A stretch of 52,547 nt of DNA. Origin: a virus. Location of the stretch: positions 1 to 52,547 of the IMG/VR virus record IMGVR_UViG_3300032224_000653; one strand, written 5' to 3'. The stretch's first letter is position 1; each line of letters starts with the position of its first letter. The translations under genes were made by a program, and so were the position numbers. Of the stretch, positions 7,553-51,225 are shown piece after piece. The notes under the pieces were generated by a model. It was not told where the DNA came from. It saw only the letters and a list, made by a program, of their open reading frames with translations, and did no database searches.

Positions 7553-10500
7553 ATGCCGTATGATGATAACGGTAATTGGTCACAAGACCCGGAGCCGTCC
7601 ATTGACGCTGGTGCCGTTGTCACTCAGATGTACGAGGCTATCCTTGGCCGCGCGCCTGATGCAGGAGGCTATCAGGCCTTTGTAGACGCCATCAACAGCG
7701 GTGTGCCAATTAGCCAATTGACGCAGTCCATGGCAAATAGCCAAGAGGCTCAAAACCATATCGCTAGTGGTCAAGGCCCAAGCCAGGAACAGATTCAAAA
7801 CGTAGTACAACAGGCCTCCTCTGATCCGGGGACTTTTGTACAACAGGCCTCTACAAATCAGGCAAACAAAGATTATGTAACGGCCCTCTACCAGGCCGTT
7901 TTGGGTCGTGCGCCTGACGCGCAAGGACTACAAGACAACCTAAACGCTTTAGCTAATGGCTCTATTACCCCACAGCAATTAGCTCAATCGTTTGCGAGCT
8001 CGCCAGAGGCCGGCTCCAACAAGATACCCGCGGCACAAGAAAAACAAATGGCTCAATCTTTAGCCGAGAGCTACGGAAAGCCGGAGTCACACTCAATTGA
8101 TACCAGATCAGGTGACTGGAGTGGTGTCACACCAACCCAATTAGTTAAGGCTGGCATTACTAACCCAGCTATTTTAAAGGCCGCCGCAGAAGGCAACCTA
8201 AACGATAATATTTTTGGTGCCTACAAGGTAGACGCCAATCAAGTAGCAAACGCATTAAACAGTGGATCCTCGGTTCCAACTGATGTTGCCAAGACAGTTA
8301 ACGACGCCACAACCAATTCGTTTACACCAAACGGTAAGGTTATTGGAACCAAGATGGCTAACGCACAGGGCACACAGGCCGTTTATTATTTTTCTGATGG
8401 CTCTACGGCCTTGGTTAATAAAGACGGCTCTATTGACCATATAACGCCTCCTGTGAGCAATTATAAGCAGCAGGCGGGTTCTATGGCCTACGCGGACAAT
8501 CCCGGCTATACCATGTTTAATGGTCAGTTGGTTAAGGTTGAGACACCCACACTACAGTGGGATCCAAGTGTTGGCAAGGTTGCCCAAAGTGATTCTGGTA
8601 TACCAAAGGTATATGATCCAGGTCCTCAAGGTGGTGGGCCGGGTCCTCTAGGTTGGGTAAGTGGCAACCTGGCTAACTTTGATAAGGGCGTAAGTACCAC
8701 AGTCCCCGGTGGTTGGACTACACTAGGTCTAATTGCTGCCTCAGCTTTAAGCGCCGGCACACTGGCACCAATGGCAAGCTCATTGGGTGGCGCCATTTTA
8801 GGATCTGCTACAGCAACTGGTGCTACGACACTAGGAACTGCATTAATTGGATCTGCTACATCGGCCTTGATGGCCGGTATCAGTGGTGGTGACGTTGGTA
8901 AGGCGGCCTTGATGGGGGCCATTGGTGGCGCTATCGGCGCCAACTCAATAGACATTGCAAATGGTTTAGTTGGTGCAGATACCATTAAAACTATTGCGGA
9001 TGCAACAGGTCAGACACAAGCCCAAATTGCTAACTTAATTACCAACTCTGTATCTTCTGGTGTGTCTGCCGCTGCCGCCGGTAAGGGCGACATTGCTACA
9101 ATTATTGCTAATAACTTAGCATCTACTGCAGTAGGCAACTACACCGGTAACATAATGAGAAACCTTGATTCTGATTTGATGAGCAAGGTTGCTGGCTCTG
9201 TCTCTACCATTGCACGTGTTGGCACAACAGCTGCGTTGAACAATAAGGATCCACAGCAGGCTATTACTAATAGCATGGGTCAAATTATTGGTAACATGGT
9301 ATCACAAAATTTAATTCAGCCAGGTATTAACACAGTCAAAGACGCAATTAAAAATGACAACACAACAACACCAGCTGAAAAAACAGACGCACAAAAGAAT
9401 GCTCAATTAGTTGATGACGGATTTAAACAGATTGTTCAGCAATTTGCACAATCAACTGGTACAAATATTACACCAGAAGAAATTGATAAATATATTGCAA
9501 CAGCTGGCGCTAAGGATTTACCACAGTATTATCCAACTGCACAAACTGTAACAGTTACTCAAGTTCCAGATACTATTACTGATGTTGGTCTAACAAATCC
9601 ATTAGTTAAAAAAGATACAACCACTCCTGCGTTAACTCCAGAAGAGATTGCACAACAAGACGCTGAAGTGGCGGCCGCAGATAAAGCCGTAGCGGCTAAA
9701 GAAGCGGCGAATGTAGCAATTAATCCTAATCAAACTCAATTAGATAAATTGTGGCAGGATTACACAAGCGGCTTAAAGGGTAATGGCGGCACATCCCCAA
9801 CGTATTCTTTAGATGCACTACAAGGCACTAACTTTTTAAATACACCAGGTACAGGAACTGGCACCAGCACAACAGCGGGTCCAGGTACTGGGGCTGGTGG
9901 TACAGGCGACGGAACCGGCGGCGGTGGTACAGGAGCCGGAGGTGGTAGTGGTACAGGAACTGTAACCGGTGGCCCAGGCACAACTGTTAGTGGTAACATT
10001 AAAAAAGTTACACAGTTGCCGGGTACTATTAAACAAACAACGTCAACAACAAACACACCAATCACTGGAACAATTCCTTCCATTTTTGGTGCCACTGATA
10101 TTAAAGATTTAACACCAGGATTAACCAAAGGATCAGCATTTAAGTTTGCCAATGAACCCACATTTTCAGAGCAGGTAACCCCAGTGCCACAAACACAACC
10201 ATACGACTATTCTGGTCAAATCCTAAACGCCGCAACCGGTGGCTCGACTAACACCGCCAACACCATCGAGGACCTCAAAGCGGGTCTGGTAAAAGGCACA
10301 CCGTTCTCATTGGCAAATCAGCCTAAGTTTATATCGGCGCTGACTCAGGTTCCAACTCAAAACCCAACAGACTACACACAACAAATTTTAAATGCCGCTC
10401 AGGGTGGTTTAATCCAGGGCTACGCCGCTGGTGACTCTGTTGAAAATCCGTATGAGATACCAATGTTGTCAGGTAAAACTTGGAGAGGTCGTCAGCTGGG

Positions 10501-10879
10501 CAATGTTCCTCATTTTCAGGGCGCTCAATTTCCAGGATACGAGCCAAAGCGTTACGCTGATGGTGGTGATGTAGAAGAACACAACCCACAGTTTTATAGT
10601 GTTGGTGGCCTGAACTCTATGGAAAACACCTACGTGCAAGGCGAAGGCGATGGCACTAGCGATAGCGTACCGGCGATGCTTGCCGATGGTGAGTTTGTTA
10701 TTCCCGCAGATGTGGTATCTAAGCTAGGCAACGGCAGCAACAACGCAGGCGCTAAGGTACTAGACGGCTTTCTGTCTTCGATCCGCACACATGCACAAGA
10801 TCACGACCCCAAAAAATTACCGCCCGAAAGCAAGGGCCCCCTCGCATATTTATTAGACGCAAAACGTAAGGTAGGCTAA
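7553..10879 (+). CDS. Tape-measure-like virion protein with DUF4214 repeats
   Basis: A 1108-residue protein. Two DUF4214-like repeats lie at about 20-65 (YEAILGRAPDAGGYQAFVDA) and 100-145 (LYQAVLGRAPDAQGLQDNL). The central part is Ala/Gly-rich with membrane-compatible glycine helices (about 395-475). A Gly/Thr repeat of the GTG type spans about 760-820. The C-terminus has SDSVPAMLADGEFVIPADVV, a signature frequent at the end of tape-measure and injected virion proteins, plus GG units (AAQGGLIQGYAAGDS, YADGGDVEE). It probably resides inside the virion or tail and is ejected with DNA (inference). It starts four bases after the preceding stop. Confidence 0.7.
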   Translation: MPYDDNGNWSQDPEPSIDAGAVVTQMYEAILGRAPDAGGYQAFVDAINSGVPISQLTQSMANSQEAQNHIASGQGPSQEQIQNVVQQASSDPGTFVQQASTNQANKDYVTALYQAVLGRAPDAQGLQDNLNALANGSITPQQLAQSFASSPEAGSNKIPAAQEKQMAQSLAESYGKPESHSIDTRSGDWSGVTPTQLVKAGITNPAILKAAAEGNLNDNIFGAYKVDANQVANALNSGSSVPTDVAKTVNDATTNSFTPNGKVIGTKMANAQGTQAVYYFSDGSTALVNKDGSIDHITPPVSNYKQQAGSMAYADNPGYTMFNGQLVKVETPTLQWDPSVGKVAQSDSGIPKVYDPGPQGGGPGPLGWVSGNLANFDKGVSTTVPGGWTTLGLIAASALSAGTLAPMASSLGGAILGSATATGATTLGTALIGSATSALMAGISGGDVGKAALMGAIGGAIGANSIDIANGLVGADTIKTIADATGQTQAQIANLITNSVSSGVSAAAAGKGDIATIIANNLASTAVGNYTGNIMRNLDSDLMSKVAGSVSTIARVGTTAALNNKDPQQAITNSMGQIIGNMVSQNLIQPGINTVKDAIKNDNTTTPAEKTDAQKNAQLVDDGFKQIVQQFAQSTGTNITPEEIDKYIATAGAKDLPQYYPTAQTVTVTQVPDTITDVGLTNPLVKKDTTTPALTPEEIAQQDAEVAAADKAVAAKEAANVAINPNQTQLDKLWQDYTSGLKGNGGTSPTYSLDALQGTNFLNTPGTGTGTSTTAGPGTGAGGTGDGTGGGGTGAGGGSGTGTVTGGPGTTVSGNIKKVTQLPGTIKQTTSTTNTPITGTIPSIFGATDIKDLTPGLTKGSAFKFANEPTFSEQVTPVPQTQPYDYSGQILNAATGGSTNTANTIEDLKAGLVKGTPFSLANQPKFISALTQVPTQNPTDYTQQILNAAQGGLIQGYAAGDSVENPYEIPMLSGKTWRGRQLGNVPHFQGAQFPGYEPKRYADGGDVEEHNPQFYSVGGLNSMENTYVQGEGDGTSDSVPAMLADGEFVIPADVVSKLGNGSNNAGAKVLDGFLSSIRTHAQDHDPKKLPPESKGPLAYLLDAKRKVG

Positions 10880-10881
10880 TC

Positions 10882-11931
10882 ATGGCTGGATTAAATAATT
10901 TATTATCCGATTCACAACAAACAACAACAACGCTGCCGTCGTGGTACGATACCGCGCAGCAGAACATTGTAAACCAGGGACAGCAGGCCTTTACTTCTGC
11001 GCCACAGTTTAGTCAAACTACTGGGCAACAGGCGGTAAATACTTTACAAGGCCCGTCTAATCCGTTTACACAGGCCCAAGGAACTCTACAACAGATCTCA
11101 TCTGGCGCCGCTAATCCATGGATCACTGATGCCTCTGGTAACGTAACTCCAGACACCAGCACCGCCATGGGTGGTTTGTTCAAGGCCCAGCAGCAACAGT
11201 TAAATCAATTGATGCCTAACTACACGGCCCCCGTAGAGGGCGCCAACATTGCCTCCGGTAACTTTGGCAGCCTGCGTGGTCAGACTGCGGTAGACAAGGC
11301 CAAGGCCGATGCGTTTACTAACCTTAACGCACAACAACTACAGGCCGCGTTGACTAACCAACAGACTGGCTCTACCGCCGCTGCTAACTTAGGCAACGTA
11401 GGCCAGCAAGGTATTAGCGCCGCGATGAACGTTGGTACAGCACAACAAAATGCTCCATACCAAAATATTGGTAACCTGGCCTCATTGCTTGGTACTATCC
11501 AGGCCCCTACCACAGTCACAAGCCAAAAACAATTATCTCCATTGGGTCAGGCGACCGCTTTGGGTGGCGCTGTTCAGGGTGGTCTATCTGCGCTGTACGC
11601 TACTCAGTCTGGAAAACAATTGCTCGACTCGCTAAATCTCTCTGGTTTAGTTAAGGGAGGCACAGCAACTATTGGTGGCGGAAGCAGTGGAAACCCCGCT
11701 GGAACTTACCAGCTTCAAGGTGGAGGTTCTTTGCAAATTAATTCAGATGGTAGTCAAACTATTATTGGTGCAGATGGTAGTCGTCAATACTATGATGCTC
11801 AAGGTAACCCAACCACGGTTGCCCAAGATTTGCAAAATCAAAACATCATTCCGGCCGGTGACCCCAATTATAATTTAAGTGGTGGTGATACATCGTCAAT
11901 TGACAATACCGACTGGACAGCAACGGAATAA
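10882..11931 (+). CDS. Gln/Ala-rich internal virion protein
   Basis: A 349-residue protein of unrecognised family, rich in Gln, Ala, Asn and Thr (FKAQQQQLNQLMPNY, FTNLNAQQLQAALTNQQTG), probably helical in the first 240 residues and Gly/Asp-rich with beta repeats afterwards (GGSLQINSDGSQTIIGADGS). The composition resembles ejection proteins. It lies two bases downstream of the tape-measure-like gene and upstream of the transglycosylase protein, so it is placed in the internal virion group by context. Confidence 0.65.
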   Translation: MAGLNNLLSDSQQTTTTLPSWYDTAQQNIVNQGQQAFTSAPQFSQTTGQQAVNTLQGPSNPFTQAQGTLQQISSGAANPWITDASGNVTPDTSTAMGGLFKAQQQQLNQLMPNYTAPVEGANIASGNFGSLRGQTAVDKAKADAFTNLNAQQLQAALTNQQTGSTAAANLGNVGQQGISAAMNVGTAQQNAPYQNIGNLASLLGTIQAPTTVTSQKQLSPLGQATALGGAVQGGLSALYATQSGKQLLDSLNLSGLVKGGTATIGGGSSGNPAGTYQLQGGGSLQINSDGSQTIIGADGSRQYYDAQGNPTTVAQDLQNQNIIPAGDPNYNLSGGDTSSIDNTDWTATE

Positions 11932-11943
11932 TAAGGTAAAAAT

Positions 11944-13866
11944 ATGGCAGGCTTAGACAGCATTAAAGGCTTTGATGAGGGTGGCACAACCACCGACGCC
12001 GGCACAGTATCGGTAAAGGCGCCACAAACAAAAGGTGGACTAAGTCTACAGGGCAATATCGCCCTAGATCCTACTCAGACAGAATCTATTTTAGCTAACA
12101 TGCAGCGCATTATTGAAGAGCGTGAGAGCCCGTTAAGTAAACTTATGGGTGGTCTTAAGGACGCCTACGCCACGACCTATGGGCCGTCTGCTATGGTCAC
12201 CCGTGATCGTGAAAGAGGGCTACAAGAAAAAGAGACGATGGACTATCGTACTCAGATGGCCGGCTATCGTGCCGCTCAGGCACAGGCCGCTGACCAAGCT
12301 AAACGTTACGCATCAATGACCCCAGGTGGTGCGGGTGGTGTTGGCGGCGCAGGCGGCGCAATGGACCCGACTGGTGTTTTAATTCCTCAGTCACAACTAG
12401 ACAGAGAGGCGACCTTTGGTACCTCTGCTGAAAAACTAGCGGCCCGTCAAGACTTTCTAAAGACAATTACCAACGAGGGAATTAAGAAACAAAATGCTCC
12501 TGGTATGGCTGATGTGGTTGACATCTATGTCAACGGCGCCCCTCAGCAAATGACTAAGGCCATGGCTGAGAAATATTTAAGCAAAGATCCTAACCTAAAG
12601 GCTATTGTAAATGGCCAACCAGTTCCTGCGGCTCAGGTTCTTGGTGCCGCTCCTGCAAAAGTAGCAATGCCAAAGACTGATGTTCCACTAGAGGGGCTAC
12701 CAACGCCCTTCTATGCACAAGAGAGCTCCTCCGGTAAAATAGACACAAGCAAGCCGGGTGTTCAGGGTGCACAGGGACCTATGCAGGTCACCAAGGATAC
12801 CTTTGATACATATAAGTCCAAGGGAATCATTCCTAAAGATTATGACCTCAACGATCCAGGTCAGGCATACGCATCGGGCATTTTGATTTTAAATGACCTG
12901 CATAAAAAGCATGGTCAAGATATTAACAAGGTCGCCGCTGAATACTTTGGTGGCCCTGGTGCCATTAACGCGGACGGCACCATCAATGTAGGTCGTGCCG
13001 ATGCAAGTGGTAAGACCATCGGATCTTATGTAAACGATATTCGTAAGCGTATGAACCTGCCGCCGGTTGAGATGGCCACCGCACAGGCCGAGGCCGCCCC
13101 AACAACTACAACCGCAGCAGCTCCATCAACACGCGCTGAGTACGAAAGACAACAAAAAGAACAGACGGCAATTACTGAGTCGCGTGTTAAAGAAGGCGAG
13201 GCTAAGAGGGGCGACATACTGTCTGCCCGTGAGCAGTCTATCGAGACAGGTAACGCACTTAACCGTATTGAGTCTACGCTCAATACACCAGAGGGTGTTA
13301 AGGCGGTTGGTGTGTTTGCCAAGCCTGGTGTTATCTCTATGTTTGGTAAGATTCTACAAAACGGTATTCAGGCCGGTAACTTTGGTGCCGTGTCGTTTAA
13401 AGACTTAGACGAGGCTATTCGTGTCGGTGGTGGTGATCAGAAGACTATTGACGCCGCACAAAAACTGGCACGTGACTTTGCCCAGATGCAGTTAAACATT
13501 GCCAAGCGTGACCTCAAAGGTCAAGGCGCGGTGTCTGATAACGAGCGTGCGATTGTTGCTAAGGTAACCGGAAGCACCGCCAACTCACCTGAGGTATTAA
13601 AAGACTTCGTGCGCTGGAATAAGACACGTAACGACTTTGATAAACAGGTTGGTGACGCGCTACAGACTTGGGAACAGAAAAATCCAAATCAGTCGTTTAC
13701 TAAATTTAAAGAGACTGACACCTACAAAAACTTGGAAAATAATTATATTGACAAGACAAATAAAATGGCCGCCAAGATGGGACTCACAGGCGCCGGCGCC
13801 CCTAAGGGCGTAGACAAGACAGACGAGTATTTAAAACAATATCTTAAACCTAAGGGTACTGTATAA
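11944..13866 (+). CDS. Internal virion protein with lytic transglycosylase domain
   Basis: A 640-residue protein with a soluble lytic transglycosylase (SLT) domain at about 250-360. The catalytic glutamate is probably E260 in YAQESSSG, followed by GAQGPMQVTKDTFDTY and AAEYFGGPGAI, the usual ES...GxxGxMQ...A..YNGG-like order. Such domains open the peptidoglycan during DNA entry. The N-terminal part is Gly/Ala-rich, and the C-terminal part (about 420-640) is helical. AAGGT precedes the ATG, and the stop overlaps the next start as TAATG. Residue-level activity is inferred. Confidence 0.82.
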   Translation: MAGLDSIKGFDEGGTTTDAGTVSVKAPQTKGGLSLQGNIALDPTQTESILANMQRIIEERESPLSKLMGGLKDAYATTYGPSAMVTRDRERGLQEKETMDYRTQMAGYRAAQAQAADQAKRYASMTPGGAGGVGGAGGAMDPTGVLIPQSQLDREATFGTSAEKLAARQDFLKTITNEGIKKQNAPGMADVVDIYVNGAPQQMTKAMAEKYLSKDPNLKAIVNGQPVPAAQVLGAAPAKVAMPKTDVPLEGLPTPFYAQESSSGKIDTSKPGVQGAQGPMQVTKDTFDTYKSKGIIPKDYDLNDPGQAYASGILILNDLHKKHGQDINKVAAEYFGGPGAINADGTINVGRADASGKTIGSYVNDIRKRMNLPPVEMATAQAEAAPTTTTAAAPSTRAEYERQQKEQTAITESRVKEGEAKRGDILSAREQSIETGNALNRIESTLNTPEGVKAVGVFAKPGVISMFGKILQNGIQAGNFGAVSFKDLDEAIRVGGGDQKTIDAAQKLARDFAQMQLNIAKRDLKGQGAVSDNERAIVAKVTGSTANSPEVLKDFVRWNKTRNDFDKQVGDALQTWEQKNPNQSFTKFKETDTYKNLENNYIDKTNKMAAKMGLTGAGAPKGVDKTDEYLKQYLKPKGTV

Positions 13867-22809: not shown

Positions 22810-23328
22810 TTATACTGCGAAGTCTGCCGCTGCTGTGGTAGAGCCACCAAACTTCTCACCATCTTCCAACTTCTGCACGTTGTTTAAACCTGCCGCGATG
22901 CCCTTAGAGCCACTTGTATCGTACGGATACAATGTGATTGATGCACGACCATAGCAACCTGAGTAGAACTCGCTGGTGTCAATGATAGGGTTCAAGTCGG
23001 CGTCAACAATACCTGGCTTTTCGTTAGAGCTGGCGTTGATGAAGTAGTGACCTGCGTATGCTGGGTCATCCTTCTCTGCGTCACCGTCACGTAGACCACC
23101 CTTGAGTGTCTTAGGAATAGAGCCACCCCATACTACGGCGTTGGCCGTCTTGGTGTCCTCGAATGCCTTCTTAAAGCGGTTTACTGTGTCTGTGTCAGAC
23201 TTAGGGATCAAGATTGAAACTGAGTACTTTAACACGCCGTTAGGTGTCTCAGCAGGCTGGAACACGTTAGCGTAAGAGAAACGTACTTTGCCAGTTACAA
23301 ACTTGGTCTTGATTGATTTTGATGCCAT
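22810..23328 (-). CDS. Single-stranded DNA-binding protein (DUF2815/Enc34 type)
   Basis: A 172-residue OB-fold type protein with the order FVTGKVRFSYANVFQP, KYSVSILIPKSD, YFINASSNEKPGIVD, FYSGCYGRASITLYPYD and KGIAAGLNNVQKLEDG, characteristic of DUF2815, the Enc34-type phage SSB. It coats the ssDNA made by the phage polymerase and helicase. ATG 23328 is chosen for the AAGGAAA 8-10 bases upstream. The C-terminus is not the acidic tail of bacterial SSB. It has its own phage-type promoter, and the 62-base leader encodes a possible 8-residue peptide and a hairpin. Confidence 0.92.
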   Translation of the reverse strand: MASKSIKTKFVTGKVRFSYANVFQPAETPNGVLKYSVSILIPKSDTDTVNRFKKAFEDTKTANAVVWGGSIPKTLKGGLRDGDAEKDDPAYAGHYFINASSNEKPGIVDADLNPIIDTSEFYSGCYGRASITLYPYDTSGSKGIAAGLNNVQKLEDGEKFGGSTTAAADFAV

Positions 23329-23352
23329 GATGATTATTTCCTTTTTAACATA

Positions 23353-23380
23353 AAGACTGGTCTTCAATTGGGGCCAGTCT
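23353..23380 (-). promoter_or_regulatory. Leader hairpin upstream of ssDNA-binding protein gene
   Basis: AGACTGG / CCAGTCT, a perfect 7-bp stem in the SSB mRNA leader, between predicted +1 (23390) and the ribosome site. A short reading frame MGRQTGPN-stop (23390-23364), starting at the predicted +1, runs through the 5' arm and ends in the loop. Confidence 0.45.
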
Positions 23381-23389
23381 GTCTACCCA

Positions 23390-33623: not shown

Positions 33624-33765
33624 TTTTTGATTCCTTGTAGTTAATTGCAAAGTTGGCGTACTGCCACATCTGTTGTGCCGCAATGGCTGGGGCCTCGCCC
33701 CTCGCCACCAATCCCATTAATGCAAACGCTGCGTACATCATGCGCTCGTCGTCTTTGTCCATCAT
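33613..33765 (-). CDS. Tiny protein coupled to PrimPol
   Basis: Fifty residues (MMDKDDERMMYAAFALMGLV, ARGEAPAIAAQQMWQYANFA). The start overlaps the PrimPol stop by one base, and it overlaps its downstream neighbour by 11 bases. Weakly hydrophobic first helix. Unknown function. Confidence 0.6.
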   Translation of the reverse strand: MMDKDDERMMYAAFALMGLVARGEAPAIAAQQMWQYANFAINYKESKNDE

Positions 33766-36050
33766 TAAAATACTCCCTCGTCAAATGTTTCAATGCTATC
33801 TAAATATTTCTGTGCCTTGTCGTTGACCTTGATGCCTTGGTAGACGTTGACACGCTCGCCGTTGATCTGCACCACCTCGGAGCGCACAAAGTGCTCCTGC
33901 GTGGCGGCCAAGAACCTGCGCTTGAATGCCTGCTCTGTCCCTGGCGCCATAGACTTCTTAAGCGCCCAGTGCTTCCAGCACGCAAACACGTCCTCCTTGC
34001 GTGTGTAGCTGAGTGGATCAAACTCCAAGGCGTCCTCGGTAAAGGTGCCCATCGGATTGCCCAGCTCCGCCATCAGGTCTAGGTACTCCTTGCCTGTTTG
34101 TGGTTGAACAAAGTGCCCACCTCTTGTGACACGCCGCTTGAGTCCCTCCATCGCCCAGTTAAAGATACCGCCCAGCTCTTGCTCTAGCTTATGCGCCAAG
34201 TCGGTGTCTTCCTTGTTAAAGAATGACTTGGTCATCTTCAACACAATCATGCGGCCGGTGAGTGCGTTAGAGTTCTCGGTTAGCTGAAGTACCTCGTTAG
34301 AATAAATAACCAAACGAGTAGGCAGGTAGCCATTCCAAGACTCTTTGTTCTTGCGGTTAACGGTAATTGTATCGCCCCCAACAATGCGCAAAAGCTGAGA
34401 TACAACAGCAGATCTATTTCGCTCAGGTGCTCTTGCGTCAGTAAAACTAGCGAGGAGCTTACCCAGCCAAGGCTGTAGACCAAATGTATCACATAGCTCT
34501 CCTAATTCCGGTGCCACTGTATTGTGCTGTCCAAGTAGGGCCACCAAGACCTTGTTGATGGTGCCCTTGCCTGATCGGCGTGGCCCAATAATGTTAAAGA
34601 ATTTTTGCTGTCTCGTATCTCCCGATAGAATATAGCCAAACATCTCCTGCAGCGTGTCGATCGAGTCCTGATCGTCCGGCCACACCGACCGCAGAAAGGT
34701 GTCCCACGTCGGCGACTGGGCGCTGGGGTTATACGCAAAGGGTAGTGAGTTCTGCGTAAAGAATCCTAGCGAGTGCGGCAACAAGATGCTGTCCTCTAAA
34801 TGGAAGATGCCATTCTTGAGGCTGATCAGTTTAGAGGCCGCCGGCTTGGTGGCTGCATAGTCCTCTAACCAAATCGGTGGCTTAGTGTTTGGGTGGTTGG
34901 CCAAGTGCACAATCGACTTAATTGCGTCGATGGCGCCCGAGACCGTGGCTGGGGATGGATTAAACGGCACCAGCGCCCCCTGCTTGCCCGACTTCTTACA
35001 CTTGTCCAAAAAGGCGTATACCTTGGAGCGGATGGTGGCCTCCTCGATGATCTCGTAGTGTGTGCCTGCGTAGATAAAGAAGTCGTCTGCGTAGTGCACG
35101 AGTCGGTAGCCCTCCTCACTGGCGTAGTAGTTGTCTAGGAACGTCCGTGCGTGGTTCATTGCGCCCGAGTCCAGCACGATCTCTCCTCGGGCGAGCGCCT
35201 CCTTTCTTGCTTGATTGTTCACCAAGAAGATTAAAGATCGCAACGTTGCGCCGCCGCCCTTGAACGTGCGCCACTTATTCTCGCAGGCGTTGGCGTGGTA
35301 GCCCTCGCCCTTGGACGACCAACGATCCCAGGCCTCGCAGGCCTCGATGTCGCCGTGGAATTGATGGTGCAGCACCATGCCGACCCTGAGCCAGCTGTCG
35401 TAGCCGTAGTCCTCAAACTTGTCCAGCAGCTCGCTCTCCACTCTGCCGAGGTCCCACTCCTCGAGCGGCGCCGTGTAGTCACCGAACGAGTCCCCCGTGT
35501 TGCGCATGGTGCGCTCGGGGATGATGTCGGTGAGGTCCTGCGCCTCGTTGGGTATATCACCACCGAGGGTGTGTCCGGTGACGGTGAAGTATCTGCCCTT
35601 GGAGTAGGCCTCGAACCCAATCGAGTGGTCGGTGTGTGCATGAAAGGGCACCGAGCGTGTGAAGATCTTCACGCCGGTACCGGAGGGCGATACCTCCATG
35701 TAGCCCTCGACCCGTGAGGCTAATTGCTGCATTGCAGCATTTATGAAACCGTCTGTGGGGTCGTACACGTCGTCTAGGTCGATGCCTACTAGGTTGTCGT
35801 CGCCTGAGAACACAAAGCCGATGCCGTCAAATTTGTGGGTGTTGTATGCCTGCTCCACGGAGAGGAAGTCTGTCCATGTATCGGGGTTGGTCGATGAGGC
35901 GTAGCGGCCGGTTGTCTGGAGGGGCATCTTTGCCCATCTCTTGTTCTCTGCGTCGCCCACCTCGACAAATGACCACATCACCCACCTAGGCACGCAACGG
36001 AGCTCTAGCGGGATGTTGGCCAGCTGTACTGGTAAACTGGTTGGTTTCAT
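33765..36050 (-). CDS. Primase-polymerase / SF3 helicase
   Basis: A 761-residue replication protein. N-terminal PrimPol (archaeo-eukaryotic primase fold): GIDLDDVYD (91-99, catalytic acids), VSPSGTGVKIF (120-130, S-x-H-like strand) and YSKGRYFTVTGH (149-160). A PriCT-like helical domain follows at about 200-265 (YDSWLRVGMVLHHQFHGDIE). The C-terminal D5/SF3 helicase has Walker A GPRRSGKGT (489-497), KLLASFTDARA as the B strand and TRLVIYSNEVL as sensor. It would both unwind and prime, replacing separate primase and helicase genes. AAAGGA precedes the ATG, and a phage-type promoter with an upstream palindrome lies 22 bases upstream. Confidence 0.93.
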   Translation of the reverse strand: MKPTSLPVQLANIPLELRCVPRWVMWSFVEVGDAENKRWAKMPLQTTGRYASSTNPDTWTDFLSVEQAYNTHKFDGIGFVFSGDDNLVGIDLDDVYDPTDGFINAAMQQLASRVEGYMEVSPSGTGVKIFTRSVPFHAHTDHSIGFEAYSKGRYFTVTGHTLGGDIPNEAQDLTDIIPERTMRNTGDSFGDYTAPLEEWDLGRVESELLDKFEDYGYDSWLRVGMVLHHQFHGDIEACEAWDRWSSKGEGYHANACENKWRTFKGGGATLRSLIFLVNNQARKEALARGEIVLDSGAMNHARTFLDNYYASEEGYRLVHYADDFFIYAGTHYEIIEEATIRSKVYAFLDKCKKSGKQGALVPFNPSPATVSGAIDAIKSIVHLANHPNTKPPIWLEDYAATKPAASKLISLKNGIFHLEDSILLPHSLGFFTQNSLPFAYNPSAQSPTWDTFLRSVWPDDQDSIDTLQEMFGYILSGDTRQQKFFNIIGPRRSGKGTINKVLVALLGQHNTVAPELGELCDTFGLQPWLGKLLASFTDARAPERNRSAVVSQLLRIVGGDTITVNRKNKESWNGYLPTRLVIYSNEVLQLTENSNALTGRMIVLKMTKSFFNKEDTDLAHKLEQELGGIFNWAMEGLKRRVTRGGHFVQPQTGKEYLDLMAELGNPMGTFTEDALEFDPLSYTRKEDVFACWKHWALKKSMAPGTEQAFKRRFLAATQEHFVRSEVVQINGERVNVYQGIKVNDKAQKYLDSIETFDEGVF

Positions 36051-36112: not shown

Positions 36113-36181
36113 AATAATAATTCTATATAACTAAAAGTAGTAGATATTGTGATTTTCATAACCAAACCATGAACAAGTCAC

Positions 36182-36345
36182 GGGGTTACGGGGGTTGCGT
36201 GGGTATATTTCCAGTTCCTTACCCTTGCTTACGCTTTCTTTTAAAAAATTTTAAAAAATAGTAAAAAGACCTCGTAACCCCTGCAACCCCTGTACCGACC
36301 TTGTAAGTCATTGATTTTATTGAAAACAGATGATAATGATTCTCA
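36182..36345. other. Origin-like element A with GGGGTTRCG repeats
   Basis: Two tandem 9-mers, GGGGTTACG-GGGGTTGCG (36182-36199), face two inverted copies, CGTAACCCC-TGCAACCCC (36273-36290). Between them lies an AT-rich core TTTTAAAAAATTTTAAAAAA (36239-36258). Then come TTGTAAGTCATTGATTTTAT and the Fur-box-like TGATAATGATTCTCA (36331-36345). The same parts occur in element B near 43.9 kb. The layout of iterons around a DNA-unwinding core suggests a replication origin or other initiator site (inference). The 292-base gap 36051-36342 holds nothing else apart from the promoter and palindrome. Confidence 0.5.
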
Positions 36346-37017: not shown

Positions 37018-37368
37018 TTAGCTCCATGTTCTGTGTTGTTCGGCGACCCACTCTAGGCCGTCGTATTCATCAATCTGCCACTTTACATCATCGGGGATCT
37101 CAACAATTTTTAAACTGGCAAACCTGCCACCGGACTCTGATCCAATGTCTTGCACTGTCTGTATTAGCGCCGGATCATCACGCTCAATGTCACGAGAATG
37201 AAAGCTCTCCCCCGTCTCAGGGAAAAAGTATTCATACTCATTAGAGAACGCCCATTTGGAGTCTCGCCTGCCAAGATCAAGTCCTTTGATTTTTGCGTAG
37301 TGTTCGGTCGCCTCGTCTGACAATCCAAAACCACCGTGACAGTTGTTAATTACAATTTTATTCGTCAT
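37018..37368 (-). CDS. Conserved phage protein (HGGFGLS type)
   Basis: A 116-residue protein with VINNCHGGFGLSDEATEHYA, RDDPALIQTVQDIG and LKIVEIPDDVKWQIDEYDG, EWVAE. The whole pattern is widespread in phages and prophages, function unknown. It overlaps the sigma factor gene by 11 bases, so its translation is tied to it. Confidence 0.82.
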   Translation of the reverse strand: MTNKIVINNCHGGFGLSDEATEHYAKIKGLDLGRRDSKWAFSNEYEYFFPETGESFHSRDIERDDPALIQTVQDIGSESGGRFASLKIVEIPDDVKWQIDEYDGLEWVAEQHRTWS

Positions 37369-37927
37369 TCTCTTCCTCCAGCTTGTCTAGGTTGAGTGTG
37401 TCCAAGGATGCCGGCTCTTGGATGAGGTAAAACTTGAGCTGATTCACACGCTTGATGGTCTTGTTTAATACCGTGGATAGCTCCTGCACCGTAGGCACTC
37501 GGCCAAGGGTCTGAGTTAGCGCACGCTCGGTGTAGGTCATCTTGCGGATCTCCTCACGCACCTTGATGGGTATGCGTATCAGATTCTCCGTGTTGTCCAG
37601 CCCACGCTCCACGCCACGAAGAATAAAGCCCTTGGCAAAGGTGGCAAACTTGGCGTTGTTGGTCGGGCTCCACTGGCGTGCGGCCTTGAATAGCCCCTCG
37701 TTGCCAAGGCCAATTAGATCCTCCTGCGGCACACGTGAGTGGTTCCACGCCGTTAGCTTGCGCACGGTGTAGACCACAAAGCGCAGGTTGTGCCTGACCA
37801 AGGCCTCGGTGGCGCTCTCGTCGCCCTCCTGTATGCGCTTGGCCAGCACATACTCGTCCTGCGTTGATAGCACGGGTATGCCGTACAGTGACTGCAGGTA
37901 GTCCGTTAAAAAGTCGTTTCTGCTCAT
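37358..37927 (-). CDS. Phage sigma-70-family factor lacking region 4
   Basis: A 189-residue RNA polymerase sigma factor. Region 1.2 is LSTQDEYVLAKRIQEGDESA. Region 2 covers ATEALVRHNLRFVVYTVRKL, VPQEDLIGLGNEGLFKAARQ, FATFAKGFILRGVERGLD and LIRIP. Region 3 covers IRKMTYTERALTQTLGRVPT, VQELSTVLN. The chain stops at EPASLDTLNLDKLEEENDE, where region 4 should begin, so the minus-35-binding domain is missing. This fits the phage promoter motif, which conserves only a minus-10-like block. Encoded in the early block, it probably switches host polymerase to middle and late genes (inference). Start overlaps the upstream gene as ATGA. Confidence 0.85.
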   Translation of the reverse strand: MSRNDFLTDYLQSLYGIPVLSTQDEYVLAKRIQEGDESATEALVRHNLRFVVYTVRKLTAWNHSRVPQEDLIGLGNEGLFKAARQWSPTNNAKFATFAKGFILRGVERGLDNTENLIRIPIKVREEIRKMTYTERALTQTLGRVPTVQELSTVLNKTIKRVNQLKFYLIQEPASLDTLNLDKLEEENDE

Positions 37928-41947: not shown

Positions 41948-42202
41948 CTAGATATTGTATGTTTTTAGGTTACTGGTGAGCACGACTGTATTGCCGAGCT
42001 CGTCATATCCCTGCACTAGGATGTCGCCTAGGTTACTGAATGCACGGGCACGGCGCATCTGTGTCACGCCCTTGGTGCGGTACTCTTGGGTGATGCCGTA
42101 GTCGGCGACCTGTATGCCGTGTATGCCGTTGGTCAATGCAACGTCAATCCAGTCACGCACCAGTGCGACTGCTTGTGAATAAGTGATCTTGGGGTGTGCC
42201 AT
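41948..42202 (-). CDS. Early protein downstream of ribozyme 1
   Basis: Eighty-four residues (ITYSQAVALVRDWIDVALTN, VTQMRRARAFSNLGDILVQG). Its ribosome site AGGAGG and ATG follow directly after the 3' end of the first hammerhead ribozyme, so its mRNA should begin with a cleaved 5'-hydroxyl end at 42246. Function unknown. Confidence 0.7.
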   Translation of the reverse strand: MAHPKITYSQAVALVRDWIDVALTNGIHGIQVADYGITQEYRTKGVTQMRRARAFSNLGDILVQGYDELGNTVVLTSNLKTYNI

Positions 42203-42218: not shown

Positions 42219-42270
42219 GGTCTCATCAGTGAGCGCATCACGCTCAGACCGGATTGCTCCGGTTTCGACC
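42219..42270 (-). ncRNA. Type II hammerhead ribozyme 1
   Basis: Minus strand, 5' to 3': GGTC (stem II), GAAA, stem III CCGGA-GCAA-TCCGG, T-C at the cleavage site, stem I TGAGCG-TGATG-CGCTCA, CTGATGA, then GACC closing stem II. All invariant hammerhead core bases are present in the right order. Stems I and III are capped and stem II is open, which defines type II. The stem III loop is GCAA (GNRA). Predicted cut is after the C at 42247. It begins two bases after the stop codon of the 42273 gene. Confidence 0.93.
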
Positions 42271-42272
42271 TG

Positions 42273-42605
42273 TTACGCTGTCTCCTTAATTTGCTGTGCT
42301 CGTATAAACTGGAAAAAATCAAGGTTAAAATCGCCCCACTCGCTGGCCTTGTCACCGATCAGTGAGCCCTTGCCGATCAGGTGGTCATACAGGGCGATGC
42401 AGTCCTGATCCAGCGCCGTGGCCAGCACACCGATGCTACCCTTGTGGAATGCGTACTTGATGATCACGGTGGGCTCGTCGCCCTCGTATGATACGTGTAC
42501 GTTGGTGACGTCGCTGATAAACTCGAATGCCTTGGTGAGGGTAAATTCGATGCTGTTGGTGCCCTTAGTAAACGGGTTGTTTAGCCCGATGTTGATTGTA
42601 TACAT
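42273..42605 (-). CDS. Early protein between the two ribozymes
   Basis: A 110-residue protein (YTINIGLNNPFTKGTNSIEF, EPTVIIKYAFHKGSIGVLAT, ALDQDCIALYDHLIGKGSLI), an alpha-beta protein of unknown function. ATG 42605 is used because AGGAGC lies eight bases upstream; a longer in-frame extension would read through the ribozyme. The mRNA segment would be released by cutting at both flanking hammerheads. Confidence 0.72.
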   Translation of the reverse strand: MYTINIGLNNPFTKGTNSIEFTLTKAFEFISDVTNVHVSYEGDEPTVIIKYAFHKGSIGVLATALDQDCIALYDHLIGKGSLIGDKASEWGDFNLDFFQFIRAQQIKETA

Positions 42606-42624
42606 ATATGCTCCTAGTAATGTT

Positions 42625-42676
42625 GGTCTCATCAGTGAGCGCATGACGCTCAGACCACGTCGCCGTGGTTTCGACC
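42625..42676 (-). ncRNA. Type II hammerhead ribozyme 2
   Basis: Same order as the first copy: GGTC, GAAA, stem III CCACG-GCGA-CGTGG, T-C, stem I TGAGCG-TCATG-CGCTCA, CTGATGA, GACC. Stem III differs from copy 1 at four positions yet stays fully paired, which is covariation support. The loop GCGA is again GNRA. Predicted cut is after the C at 42653. Starts two bases after the stop of the 42679 gene. Confidence 0.93.
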
Positions 42677-42678
42677 TG

Positions 42679-42930
42679 TTACTCGTAGATGATACCCTCA
42701 TCTAGTGCCACCTGATACGCATCCTCGTGGCCTAAGGTTTTAACTAACTCGTAGTCATCGTCTTGGAATTCGTAGATCTCAAAACTAAACTGCTTGGTCT
42801 TGGGATTGTATTCCAATACGTTGATGTCATCTACCTGCCATGTAAGGTTATCGCCTAATTGCTCAGGCAATAATCTTGCAGGCACTACCTTTTTTTGGTC
42901 AATCAATTTAACGATTGTGAAATTAGGCAT
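42679..42930 (-). CDS. First early-operon protein
   Basis: Eighty-three residues (FTIVKLIDQKKVVPARLLPE, TWQVDDINVLEYNPKTKQFS), mainly beta-strands with an acidic end. AAAGGAA lies about eight bases upstream. It is the first gene downstream of the host-type promoter at 43146-43173, with a leader of about 205 bases. Unknown function. Confidence 0.7.
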   Translation of the reverse strand: MPNFTIVKLIDQKKVVPARLLPEQLGDNLTWQVDDINVLEYNPKTKQFSFEIYEFQDDDYELVKTLGHEDAYQVALDEGIIYE

Positions 42931-42967
42931 GGTGTATTCCTTTATATTGGTTGATTAGTACTGCCTC

Positions 42968-42992
42968 GAGCGCACTACATTGTAATGCGCTC
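42968..42992 (-). repeat. Strong hairpin in early mRNA leader
   Basis: GAGCGCACTACA / TGTAATGCGCTC, 12-base arms with a single G-T wobble around one base. As RNA it would form a long hairpin 40 bases before the first early gene. There is no T-tract, so an attenuator or stability element is more likely than a terminator. Confidence 0.5.
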
Positions 42993-43145
42993 TGAGCATT
43001 ACTATCACGGCTGTTGAGACTACTTAGCTCCGCCGGTATATCTTCGCTAGGTCTGTTTCTATATCCTAGGTCTGCCACATGATTATACAGGTTGGTACTT
43101 AGTCGCCTGTTGAGTAGATTAGCTACTGCACTTCCAATAACATCT

Positions 43146-43173
43146 ATTATCCGACCTTTGAGACGAATGTCAA
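43146..43173 (-). promoter_or_regulatory. Host-type sigma-70 early promoter
   Basis: TTGACA (43168-43173) and GATAAT (43146-43151) on the minus strand with a 16-bp spacer, a close match to the bacterial consensus. Predicted start near 43139. It would drive the early block, which has no TGCGTATTAG motif anywhere. Confidence 0.65.
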
Positions 43174-43469: not shown

Positions 43470-43617
43470 GTTAGTACTCACTAACGCTATGCACCAGTAT
43501 GGTGCATGGGTTAGGTGTGTGAGTGCTCACTTACTTAGCGCACCATGTTGGTGCATTGGTGTAAGTGTGTGAGTGCTTACTTACTTAGCGCACCATACTG
43601 GTGCACGGGACTATGAG
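43470..43617. repeat. Three-unit tandem array of paired palindromes
   Basis: Units of 49-50 bp start at 43470, 43519 and 43569. Each has a first dyad (GTTAGT-ACTC-ACTAAC, GTGAG-TG-CTCAC, GTGAGTGCTTAC) and a second, perfect 15-bp dyad GCACCA-N3-TGGTGC (43491, 43540, 43590), whose central bases vary (GTA, TGT, TAC). Units 2 and 3 also share CTTACTTAGC. There are no spacers as in CRISPR. Protein-binding array (partition, origin or operator) inferred. Confidence 0.75.
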
Positions 43618-43830
43618 GCTACGCAGACTGGGTGCTGGGCGCGTGGCAAGAAGCGTGCCAGCCCCATTGCACGATGTGAGATAGCGTTTCACAATGCGAA
43701 ATGCGGGTCCCTAAACCTAAACGGCATCACCCCTTTTAGGGTACCGGCCCGGTGGGGGCGGAGGCCCCATGCCAAACCTCAAGTTTGTATAATTTTTTTG
43801 TAGAAAAATCAAGCACTTACATATTGCTAA

Positions 43831-44060
43831 ATAGTAAATGATAATCATTCTCATCTGTTTCTATATAAATCAAGGACTTAGCGCATCGGTCCCGGGGTTA
43901 CGGGGGTTACATACCCTTTTTATTATTTTTTAAAATTTTTTAAAAAAAGCGTAAGCGTGGGTGGGGGAGGTTAAAATATGGCTCGTAACCCCTGCAACCC
44001 TGGGACCAAACGTGTAAGTTGTTGATTTTGTTCAATCCAAATGATAATCATTATCATTTA
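43831..44060. other. Origin-like element B (large imperfect dyad)
   Basis: Left and right halves are imperfect inverted copies. Each outer end has a Fur-box-like 15-mer (43839-43853, and the perfect TGATAATCATTATCA at 44042-44056). Inside are GGGGTTACG-GGGGTTACA (43894-43911) and inverted CGTAACCCC-TGCAACCCT (43984-44001). The centre is an AT-rich core (43917-43948). Element A at 36.2 kb is related in inverted orientation. Replication origin is the leading interpretation. Confidence 0.5.
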
Positions 44061-44434: not shown

Positions 44435-44951
44435 ATGAAAAGATTAAATACAATTACAAATAAACCCTTTAACCGCGGGGACGTACGAAAAGACGGATAT
44501 TTCTTTTTGGGTTATCAAACAAAAAAAAAATAAAAACGGATATTTTTATGAGGCTTGGGTTAGACCAGAAGTTTGGAAAAATCAAATTACTGGCGAAAAA
44601 AGCACTTTAGAAAAACATGTTAGAAGAACATTATCTCATGTAAAATCAAAAGCCAAAAAACAAAATATCCCATTTGATTTGTCTGTACAATACGCAATAT
44701 CAATTGTTTCTGAAACGTGCCCGGCTTTAGGAATAAAATTAAATTGGGCGTCACAAAATGGAATGCAAAGGGAAGCAAGTCCCTCATTAGATAAAATAAT
44801 CCCAGAATTGGGATATGTTGAAGAAAACGTCATGTGGTTGTCGTTTAAAGCAAATTTAATGAAAAACAATGCAAACCAAAAACAACTTAAAAAATTCGCA
44901 GAATGGATTTTGAATGGCCATATTGGCAACACAAAGGGTGTTAACCCATAA
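44435..44951 (+). pseudogene. HNH homing endonuclease, frameshifted at A10 run
   Basis: The first frame gives KRLNTITNKPFNRGDVR and FLGYQTKKK then stops at 44533. The +1 frame continues NGYFYEAWVRPEVW, ETCPALGIKLNWASQNG, SLDKIIPELGYVEENVMWLS and LKKFAEWI. Together they align from end to end with the intact HNH protein at 29810 (RRLNPETGKEFECGDTR, NKMGFNYEIWE, CQMTGLLF, SIDRIDSNKDYTKDN). The break is at ten consecutive A (44521-44530). A sequencing error, programmed frameshift or true decay are all possible. It sits directly before the Hint gene and terminase. Confidence 0.72.
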
Positions 44952-45906
44952 CTACTGGAAATTTGCGGATGACCTGGTGCCGGGCGATGTGGTCTTTGAC
45001 CAACACGGACGACCGGTAACCATCACGCTCGCGCAGACCTACCGCTCGGCGCACTGCTACGAGGTGATGTTTAACGACTACCTCACGGTAAGGGGCGACA
45101 TCAGGATGTCCCTGGCGCTAGAGGACCGCAGGTATCGCTTCCGTTCTGACGCACACCGAGGCAGACACCAGTTCAGGCGCCCGCTTAAGGTCAAGACGAT
45201 AGAGGACCTACTCAGCGAGTCCATGCTCGACCACCGAAACCGAAAAACTTACTCGGTCCCCACCACACAACCCATCGAGCTGCCGCACCAGACGCTCCCC
45301 GTGCCGCCTTTTATCTTTGGTTTTTGGTTTTTTAACCACAAACTAAACGGCAACATGTGCCCAACCACTGGCCATGAAGACTTTATCTTGGAAAAATTCC
45401 AGGATCATGGCTATCTGATCAAAGAAAAAGACCTCAACCACCGCGGCGAGCGTAACTTTACGACTACCCCCACCGTCGTCTCTCACTTGGTCCCGGATAT
45501 TCCCACCAAGATACCCAACAACTACCTACTCGGGTCCGCCGAGCAGCGTTTTGAGCTGCTTCAGGGCATTTTGTTTGCAAAAAACCGCTCGTTTAACAAA
45601 ACCAGCCAACAGTTTCGGTTTACGAGCCTGAGCAAGACCTACGTTACGCAGGTTCAGTACCTGGCGGAGTCGCTCGGCTGCAGGACAAAGGTAGACTACG
45701 ACCCACACAACAAAAACTACACCATATTTATCAAGACAAAGCTACAGATCCACCCGGCGCAGAGGGTAAACCCTAACGCCAAGCACATCGCCCGACGATT
45801 TGTGACAGAAATCAATCCCGTCCCCTCCCAGCTGTGTGTTCACATCGAGACAAACGGCGCGGACCAGACCATTCTTGTGGGGGAGGGCTTCATAGCGTGT
45901 CTTTAA
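44914..45906 (+). CDS. Stand-alone Hint/intein-like protein with degenerate LAGLIDADG domain
   Basis: A 330-residue protein. The N-terminus (TQRVLTHNYWKFADDLVPGD, VVFDQHGRPVTI, CYEVMFNDYLTVRGD) follows intein blocks A and B but begins with Met, not Cys, and has no extein. The middle matches a LAGLIDADG arrangement (FIFGFWFF, RFELLQGILFAKNRSF, RFTSLSKTYVTQVQYLAESL), yet both usual catalytic aspartates are replaced (FFNHK and LFAKN where GDG or DTDG is expected). The C-terminus CVHIET...GEGFIACL resembles intein blocks F-G, but the His-Asn is missing. Splicing and cutting are therefore unlikely. It overlaps the HNH remnant by 38 bases and terminase by 10. Confidence 0.68.
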   Translation: MAILATQRVLTHNYWKFADDLVPGDVVFDQHGRPVTITLAQTYRSAHCYEVMFNDYLTVRGDIRMSLALEDRRYRFRSDAHRGRHQFRRPLKVKTIEDLLSESMLDHRNRKTYSVPTTQPIELPHQTLPVPPFIFGFWFFNHKLNGNMCPTTGHEDFILEKFQDHGYLIKEKDLNHRGERNFTTTPTVVSHLVPDIPTKIPNNYLLGSAEQRFELLQGILFAKNRSFNKTSQQFRFTSLSKTYVTQVQYLAESLGCRTKVDYDPHNKNYTIFIKTKLQIHPAQRVNPNAKHIARRFVTEINPVPSQLCVHIETNGADQTILVGEGFIACL

Positions 45907-47342
45907 CAGAAAAACAAGAGCTTGAGATTAAAAAATTTGCGGCGGCGCGTAAACACTGGCCCAACAACCAGCTAGAGGCCGCGATTTGGCAAATAAAATG
46001 GAGGCTGCAGGCGCTTCCTCACCAAAAAGAACCACAAGACGGAGAGTATGACACATTTCTTATGCTGGCCGGTCGCGGATCCGGCAAGACACACACGGCC
46101 TCTCATTGGATTGGCATTCGTGCTTGGATGTATGACAACACACGCTGGCTCGTCACTGCCCCAACCTCCAATGATATACGCGCAACTTGTTTTGAGGGAG
46201 ACAGTGGACTTCTCAATATCATCCCCAAGTCACTTATACGCGATTACAACAAGTCCCTCTTCGAGATTACACTCATCAATGGGTCCCTCATCCAGGGCAT
46301 CCCCGCCTCCGAGCCAGAGCGCTACCGTGGTAAACAGTATCACGGGGCATGGTTCGACGAGCTGTGCGCGTTCGATTACATCGACGAGGCCTACGATGGA
46401 GTACAGTTCACGCTACGTCTTAGGGACCCCCGAATCCCTCGCGTGCAGCAGATTATTACCACCACACCAAAACCAAAAGAGCTCATCGTTGACCTCAACG
46501 AGGGAAAGGTAGGCGGCGACGTCTATGTCGCAAACGCCTCCTCGTACGACAACCGGGCAAACCTATCAGAGACGTTCTTTAAGCAGCTTGAGTCGTATGA
46601 CGGGACCGACATCGGAAGACAGGAGATCTATGGCGAGATCCTTGACCCAGAGGCGGCCGGTATCATCAAGCGCAAGCACTTCCGCATGTGGCCCGCAAAC
46701 ATGCCCACACCAGACCTCGAGTACGTGATCGCCTCGTATGACCCGGCGACCTCTGAGAAGACGGTCAACGACCCAACCGCGTGCACGGTCTGGGGCGTGT
46801 TTGAAAGAATGGATGCCGGTACCTGCGTGATACTGCTAGACTCATGGGACGCCCACCTCTCGTACCCCGAGCTGCGCCGTAAAGTAATTGATGACTTTAA
46901 GGAGGTCGTCTATGGATCGGACAACGACTTTGCCAAGGGAAGAAAGGCGGACCTCATCCTTATGGAGGACAAGTCGGCCGGTATCTCACTGATCCAGGAG
47001 CTTCAAGGGTCTGGTGTCCCGGTGCAGGGATACAACCCGGGACGAGCCGATAAGGTCCAGCGTATCAACATCGTGGCGCCGCTGGTCGTCAAGGGCAAGG
47101 TATACATCCCCGAGGACGCCAAGATCAAGGGCGAGTACGCAGACTGGGCCAAGCGTTTTATTCGCCAGGTGTGCTCGTTCCCTGAGGCCGGTGGCCATGA
47201 TGACTATGTCGACTCGCTCTCACAGGCGCTGCGTGTGCTAAGAGACGTCGGCTGGCTGCAGCTTGATCCGTTGCCTGCGAGAGACTACGACTACGCCGAC
47301 GACATAGCCAAGAACCGATCCGCCAACCCCTACGCCCAATAA
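45897..47342 (+). CDS. terL: Terminase large subunit
   Basis: Packaging ATPase-nuclease, 481 residues. Walker A GRGSGKT is at 59-65, Walker B is in YHGAWFDELCAFDYID, and the coupling motif is in QQIITTTPKPKELI. The RNase H-like nuclease has YVIASYDPATSEK, ADLILMEDKSAG and GGHDDYVDSLSQAL supplying the acidic residues. GTG 45897 is chosen for GGGAGGG nine bases upstream; a longer in-frame start at 45834 would overprint the Hint gene. The partner small subunit lies far away at 25077 on the other strand. Confidence 0.93.
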   Translation: MSLTEKQELEIKKFAAARKHWPNNQLEAAIWQIKWRLQALPHQKEPQDGEYDTFLMLAGRGSGKTHTASHWIGIRAWMYDNTRWLVTAPTSNDIRATCFEGDSGLLNIIPKSLIRDYNKSLFEITLINGSLIQGIPASEPERYRGKQYHGAWFDELCAFDYIDEAYDGVQFTLRLRDPRIPRVQQIITTTPKPKELIVDLNEGKVGGDVYVANASSYDNRANLSETFFKQLESYDGTDIGRQEIYGEILDPEAAGIIKRKHFRMWPANMPTPDLEYVIASYDPATSEKTVNDPTACTVWGVFERMDAGTCVILLDSWDAHLSYPELRRKVIDDFKEVVYGSDNDFAKGRKADLILMEDKSAGISLIQELQGSGVPVQGYNPGRADKVQRINIVAPLVVKGKVYIPEDAKIKGEYADWAKRFIRQVCSFPEAGGHDDYVDSLSQALRVLRDVGWLQLDPLPARDYDYADDIAKNRSANPYAQ

Positions 47343-50787: not shown

Positions 50788-51225
50788 GTGTTTGATTTGA
50801 AACAAAATGAAGAGCCAGATTTACGTTCAGAGCAGGAATGCTTTCCAGACGTAGACCCTGGGGTAGAAATTCTTGGTGACCGAGTACTTGTGCAGTTGCG
50901 CAGGGAAAAGATAACCAGTAAAGGTGGAATCATCCTCGTTGATGAGACCAGACAAACCTTACGTTTTAACGAGACGGTAGCTAAAGTAATCGGTATTGGT
51001 CCACTGGCATATAAGAGCCCTGAGGATCTATCACCCTGGATCGAGGGTCCGTGGTGTAAAGTTGGCGACTTAGTTCGCACAATTAAATACGGTGGCGATC
51101 GTTTTGTGGTGCAGCCAGATGATGATGGCGCCCCGGTGGTATTTATTACACTACAGGCGCGTGAGGTGATCTCTAAGATCAGATCATTCGAGGCGGCACA
51201 AAAAATGAAAGCGTTTGTAGATTAA
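50788..51225 (+). CDS. GroES-like co-chaperonin/head-operon protein
   Basis: A 145-residue protein. Residues 25-60 read VEILGDRVLVQLRREKITSK and GGIILVDE, the roof and core pattern of GroES (Cpn10). This is followed by ETVAKVIGIGPLAYK, VGDLVRTIKYGGDRFVV and VVFITLQAREVISKI, which complete the beta-barrel. The N-terminal acidic extension and the long loop differ from host GroES. It may replace or modify GroES for folding capsid protein, as gp31 does in T4 (family knowledge; inference here). GTG start supported by AAGGAG nine bases upstream. Confidence 0.78.
   Translation: MFDLKQNEEPDLRSEQECFPDVDPGVEILGDRVLVQLRREKITSKGGIILVDETRQTLRFNETVAKVIGIGPLAYKSPEDLSPWIEGPWCKVGDLVRTIKYGGDRFVVQPDDDGAPVVFITLQAREVISKIRSFEAAQKMKAFVD

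Follow-up and report, generated by a model that had tools for sequence, protein, structure and literature searches.

The minus strand of the DNA analysed here, from an uncultured bacterial virus (IMG/VR record IMGVR_UViG_3300032224_000653, 52,547 nucleotides in full, referred to below as the window), carries at 42219-42270 what structure, covariation and position together support well as a type II hammerhead ribozyme between two cistrons. A second copy lies on the same strand at 42625-42676. Taken together, the sequence data suggest that both copies are probably active type II hammerheads that cleave, in cis, an early polycistronic message where one gene meets the next.

Structure of the two hammerheads

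Read on the minus strand, copy 1 consists of GGTC-GAA-[A CCGGA GCAA TCCGG T]-C-[TGAGCG TGATG CGCTCA]-CTGATGA-GACC, with the predicted cut directly after the isolated C. The strands of stem II (GGTC/GACC) occupy 42267-42270 and 42219-42222; stem III, with its GCAA loop, spans 42248-42263; C17 is at 42247; stem I spans 42230-42246; and CTGATGA lies at 42223-42229. Every core base is present (CUGANGA ... GAAA ... UH) at a three-way junction of a 4-bp stem II, a 6-bp stem III with a GNRA loop and a 6-bp stem I. Stem II is open and stems I and III are loop-capped, which is the type II arrangement. Homology with the hammerhead core predicts cleavage between C17 (42247) and 42246. The surroundings of the element read TAA-CA-ribozyme-AACAT-AGGAGG-CCACA-ATG. 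Sequence and fold thus agree with the original prediction, which had described a complete type II hammerhead with all conserved bases; its coordinates, its cut after 42247 as a prediction from the core, and its placement two bases past a stop codon with AGGAGG and ATG just downstream are likewise borne out by the sequence.

Copy 2 is identified by the same types of evidence as copy 1, namely sequence, motif scan, fold and a held-out model, and its cut is predicted after 42653. Its stem III (CCACG GCGA CGTGG) differs from that of copy 1 in three base pairs, all compensated, with GNRA loops in both; in loop I the copies differ at a single base. When either 52-base element is folded, the minimum-energy structure is exactly the three-way hammerhead (-21.3 kcal/mol, z -3.4, for copy 1), and this predicted fold becomes less dominant when copy 1 is refolded with its flanks. 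These are the only two full type II motifs in the whole window. A third, weak model match on the plus strand (50920-50957, 15-16 bits) was rejected, as it has no proper stems I and III.

Covariation and covariance models

When the window was dinucleotide-shuffled 300 times and both strands were searched, two relaxed matches were obtained in total, with a stem sum of at most 12 as compared to 17 for the real element. A pattern scan of IMG/VR returned at least 120 stretches, and the same pattern matched 37 stretches in genome_contigs. The loci of the IMG/VR matches listed provided a set of 182 distinct type II hammerheads.

Among 50 aligned relatives of equal length, all 16 base pairs hold, with standard pairs in 800/800 cells. 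Both sides have changed in 10 of the 16 pairs (213 cells), the pattern expected of compensatory change. The covariation score of 0.705 compares with 0.118 for shuffled and at most 0.102 for slid controls. The retrieval pattern itself fixed stem II and part of the core, which therefore do not vary in this set; one compensated stem II change, GATC/GATC, is found in L167. Relatives retrieved via flanking proteins rather than by the motif pattern also keep the core while their stems have changed.

The Rfam Hammerhead_II model (RF02276, cut-off 37 bits) matches neither copy, even at E<=10, and no hammerhead above cut-off is found in the window by Rfam at the gathering threshold and E<=10, nor at the RF02276 cut-off in the loci of eight relatives. 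This model gives near relatives whose core is exact only 21-36 bits, among them five copies in L063 at 21.4 to 36.4. RF02276 presupposes a 2-bp stem II and a particular fixed tail, and the miss is a fault of the model, not of the element. The original prediction had named a covariance score below the family threshold as grounds for refutation. RF02276 does give the window no score reaching that threshold, yet this model is unsuited, so a held-out model of 23 sequences from other phages, none from the window, was substituted. With it the two copies score 72.4 and 70.9 bits (E about 1e-18). This comparison shows that the Rfam type II model overlooks a common phage subclass; such ribozymes are therefore probably under-counted.

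No close DNA relative was found among cultured phages, blastn with the ribozyme as query gave chance-level matches only, and a hammerhead copy looked for in phage zth2-2 was absent.

Placement between genes

The relatives occupy a characteristic position. Placement counted as tight when, all on the same strand, a stop codon lay no more than 40 nt upstream and a Shine-Dalgarno site plus start codon no more than 60 nt downstream. By this definition 135 of the 182 relatives are tightly intergenic on the coding strand, as compared to 233/3640 (6%) of random places and 1/182 on the opposite strand. The gap from stop codon to ribozyme has a median of 2 nt and lies between -1 and 3 nt in 132/182; the distance from the ribozyme end to the next start has a median of 22 nt across the set. 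This co-directional, intergenic placement is the one expected of an element that processes operons. Several hammerhead copies occur together in 39 of the 105 loci among the matches listed. The densest array noted is in L063, a single phage contig with nine type II matches in about 4 kb (9144-13229, minus strand), the ninth of them weak at 33 bits.

In the window, the message would encounter three small genes around the two ribozymes. The 83-aa gene (42679-42930, minus strand; no family match) is the first after the leader and is directly followed by copy 2. Between the ribozymes lies the 110-aa gene (42273-42605, minus strand; phrog_11722, of unknown function), which is listed as a 142-aa ORF at 42273-42701 and has a Shine-Dalgarno site with an ATG at 42605. 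Downstream of copy 1 is the 84-aa gene (41948-42202, minus strand; no family match), preceded by AGGAGG at 42213-42208.

A hammerhead follows the 83-aa gene in 12/12 relatives found. Eight different kinds of gene come next in these relatives, so the ribozyme keeps to the gene before it and the gene after it is the one that is swapped. In 5/7 relatives a hammerhead, with differing stems, precedes the 84-aa gene. At the same junction in the closely related L125 and L126 the ribozyme is absent and the stop codon directly abuts the Shine-Dalgarno site; cutting there is therefore not essential. Junctions of the 110-aa gene are mixed, some with a ribozyme and some without. Several hammerheads that follow the 83-aa gene or precede the 110-aa gene (L146, L159-L164, L166) carry one extra U past CTGATGA (CTGATGA-T-GACC), with an intact core and compensated stems.

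A co-conserved A and U in place of the loop I pseudoknot

In most of the type II ribozymes that Perreault et al. described (PMC3088659), loop I forms a pseudoknot with the 3' tail. Here, complementarity of at least 4 bp between these regions is found in 13/158 relatives against a shuffled mean of 13.0, so this part of the type II consensus is lacking, and 4-bp complementarity between loop I and the 5' flank is likewise at the shuffled level. Matches of 3 bp between loop I and the tail number 65 where 54 are expected; this excess was rejected as evidence for a pseudoknot, being small and reached by 9/300 shuffles. The window copies offer at most an AUG/CAU pairing, which is not kept in L127 and L128.

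Two other positions are kept together in 156/158 relatives: an A directly 5' of stem II and a U that opens loop I. The A persists where the stop codon lies further up (47/48, 12/12 and 19/19), so stop codons do not account for it. Type I and type III hammerheads have a known reverse-Hoogsteen A-U contact (PMC6155905), and by analogy a reasonable guess is that the conserved A and U perhaps form the same contact. Many type II ribozymes are accelerated by the pseudoknot; since it is missing here, how fast these elements would cut at cellular Mg2+ is uncertain.

Probable early transcription context

Upstream of the three genes lies a sigma-70-like promoter (TTGACA-16-GATAAT, 43146-43173, minus strand; 11/12), a consensus match of a kind no commoner in this region than in shuffles. 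It is the likely start of the message holding both ribozymes. Between the promoter and the first gene, a conserved, structured leader RNA occupies 42954-43118 on the minus strand. In an alignment of 13 sequences (the relatives being L029, L054, L060, L124, L125, L127, L131, L132, L140, L152, L154 and L160), 99.7% of its cells are paired, 11 pairs have changed on both sides and many loop bases are invariant. It has no match in Rfam and is possibly an undescribed phage RNA, antiterminator-like or regulatory. In the window and its relatives, this leader of about 165 nt lies before whichever gene comes first.

Downstream of the ribozymes, the same strand encodes a sigma-70-like factor (37358-37927) and a primase (33765-36050), with further small genes, a helicase-like protein, a DUF2800 protein, a Gp2.5-like annealing protein and a DNA polymerase. 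The 110-aa protein has a distant homologue near the left end of Achromobacter phage Axy09 (Autographiviridae). From the promoter, the small genes, the sigma factor and primase on the same strand, and the position of the Axy09 homologue, the ribozyme operon is likely early, and the original description of an early operon was a fair reading of this evidence.

Other signals were noted in and around this block. A perfect sigma-70 match (TTGACA-17-TATAAT) lies within it, downstream of the ribozymes, at 40625-40597 on the minus strand. Noncoding, Fur-box-like palindromes such as ATGATAATGATTATCAT occur at both ends of the minus-strand early block (44057-44040, 43850-43837 and 36341-36330, minus strand). 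Similar noncoding blocks at 36170-36300 and 43890-44000 carry GGTTGCAGGGGTTACGAG and its inverted partner CCCCCGTAACCCCG flanking A/T-rich sequence, and upstream of the early promoter, 43490-43620 holds repeated GCACCA-NNNTGG-TGC-like palindromes with CTAAGTAAGTGAGCACTCACACAC-like spacers. A DUF2815 RNA (RF03084, 73 bits) lies at the start of the gene for the Gp2.5-like annealing protein (23326-23389, minus strand). On the plus strand, matches to the terminase large subunit extend across two overlapping reading frames (44914-45906 and 45834-47342).

Proposed function and alternative readings

If both ribozymes cut as predicted, cleavage of copy 2 would separate the leader and the 83-aa gene from the rest of the message, and cleavage of copy 1 would free the 110-aa gene from the genes downstream. 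With both stem I and stem III closed, a hairpin would remain at the new end of each product. From hammerhead chemistry, the upstream product would terminate in stem III, capped by its GNRA loop and bearing a 2',3'-cyclic phosphate; the downstream product would begin with a 5'-OH and the stem I hairpin, followed soon by a Shine-Dalgarno site. Such terminal hairpins on both type II products should slow decay from either side, and cutting should make the decay and abundance of one cistron independent of its neighbour's, with no host nuclease required.

It could be supposed that type II is special since both of its products keep hairpins. This idea was rejected, as phage gene junctions harbour types I and III as well; among the matches listed, 35/79 of type I and 12/23 of type III are tightly placed. 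These types leave one product without a terminal hairpin, so two-hairpin protection cannot be the whole reason. Judged from these placements, the constant feature across the types is the predicted cut between genes, not the permutation.

An unlikely refinement is that the ribozyme is gated by translation, cutting only on messages that are ribosome-free at the junction. Since the ribozyme starts -1 to 3 nt past the stop codon and ends about 22 nt before the start, a ribosome terminating at that stop would sit over stem II and the GAAA strand, and one initiating at that start over the other end. An A/U contact replacing the pseudoknot would also leave the tail free for the ribosome site. If so, early mRNA processing would be coupled to translation of the first gene.

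It is quite unlikely that the element chiefly protects or insulates the mRNA through its two stable stem-loops, with a catalytic core that is a relic or too slow to matter. Two strong hairpins at an intercistronic place, the missing rate-enhancing pseudoknot and the absence of the element from some close relatives are consistent with that role. A mere hairpin pair, however, would be expected to lose the unpaired core, which the protein-retrieved relatives keep as their stems change, and to lose the A before stem II and the U starting loop I, two unpaired bases that the retrieval pattern did not impose and that are nonetheless almost always conserved.

The gene shuffling at these junctions could also point to a DNA-level linker, in which short conserved ends provide the homology for recombination that swaps early gene cassettes and RNA cutting is incidental. 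Gene order around the ribozymes changes freely, as the eight kinds of gene after one upstream gene illustrate, and identical ribozymes in L160, L162 and L164 precede three different genes. The phage also encodes candidate machinery, and recombination would perhaps use its Gp2.5-like/DUF2815 annealing protein together with a PD-(D/E)XK protein (DUF2800). This reading is nevertheless very unlikely: a DNA linker needs neither the full compensation seen as stems vary nor the strict strand and stop/start placement, and ribozyme-free junctions (of the TAGGAGGCAGTATG type) are shuffled too. Finally, a chance resemblance to the hammerhead, which the shortness of hammerhead motifs and the missing RF02276 match might suggest, has a negligible probability, as the shuffles exclude it, the covariation and position refute it, and the held-out model and the presence of two copies contradict it.

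Relation to known systems and meaning

Cis-cleavage at gene boundaries, the preferred reading, has precedents. Clusters of hammerheads beside prophage genes were reported by Perreault et al. (2011), who proposed message processing for (pro)phages; polycistronic transcripts of about 2 kb were cleaved in vitro, phage-like arrays at other loci also cut in vitro and one of these arrays in E. coli as well, and 14/18 consensus hammerheads cut in vitro (PMC3088659). The original prediction had called the processing of a phage operon by its own hammerhead rarely documented, which holds for direct proof but not for the idea, already proposed in that study.

The window copies resemble the type II hammerheads of RF02276 in their core, open stem II and closed stems I and III, and in occurring as several nearby copies per phage genome that flank single small genes on the coding strand (PMC3088659). 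They differ in having a 4-bp stem II, in carrying the A 5' of stem II and the loop I U instead of the loop I/3' tail pseudoknot, and in going undetected by RF02276. HHphage of haloviruses HF1/HF2 likewise lies in an early polycistronic phage transcript just before a start codon, and a mapped early transcript end there is at most 3 nt from the cut site (PMC3088659). That element, from viruses of extreme halophiles, has a variant, HHmeta-like core (HHmeta needs high Mg2+), whereas the window copies have the standard core (PMC3088659). The HDV-like theta ribozymes of gut phages are also small, self-cleaving and thought to process phage transcripts, but belong to another ribozyme class and lie at tRNA 3' ends rather than at mRNA gene junctions (PMC10879173).

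New here are a structural subtype that Rfam misses, with a co-conserved A and U and no loop I/tail pseudoknot; the linkage to one upstream gene in every relative found; and a placement stricter than the literature consulted describes. The role of hammerheads in bacteria and bacterial viruses was described as unproven in 2011, and the literature consulted leaves it largely so. As read from sequence, the numerous relatives located after a stop codon and before a start site support the old, little-tested idea of message splitting, and the scale and strictness of this placement make the idea directly testable with one cloned junction.
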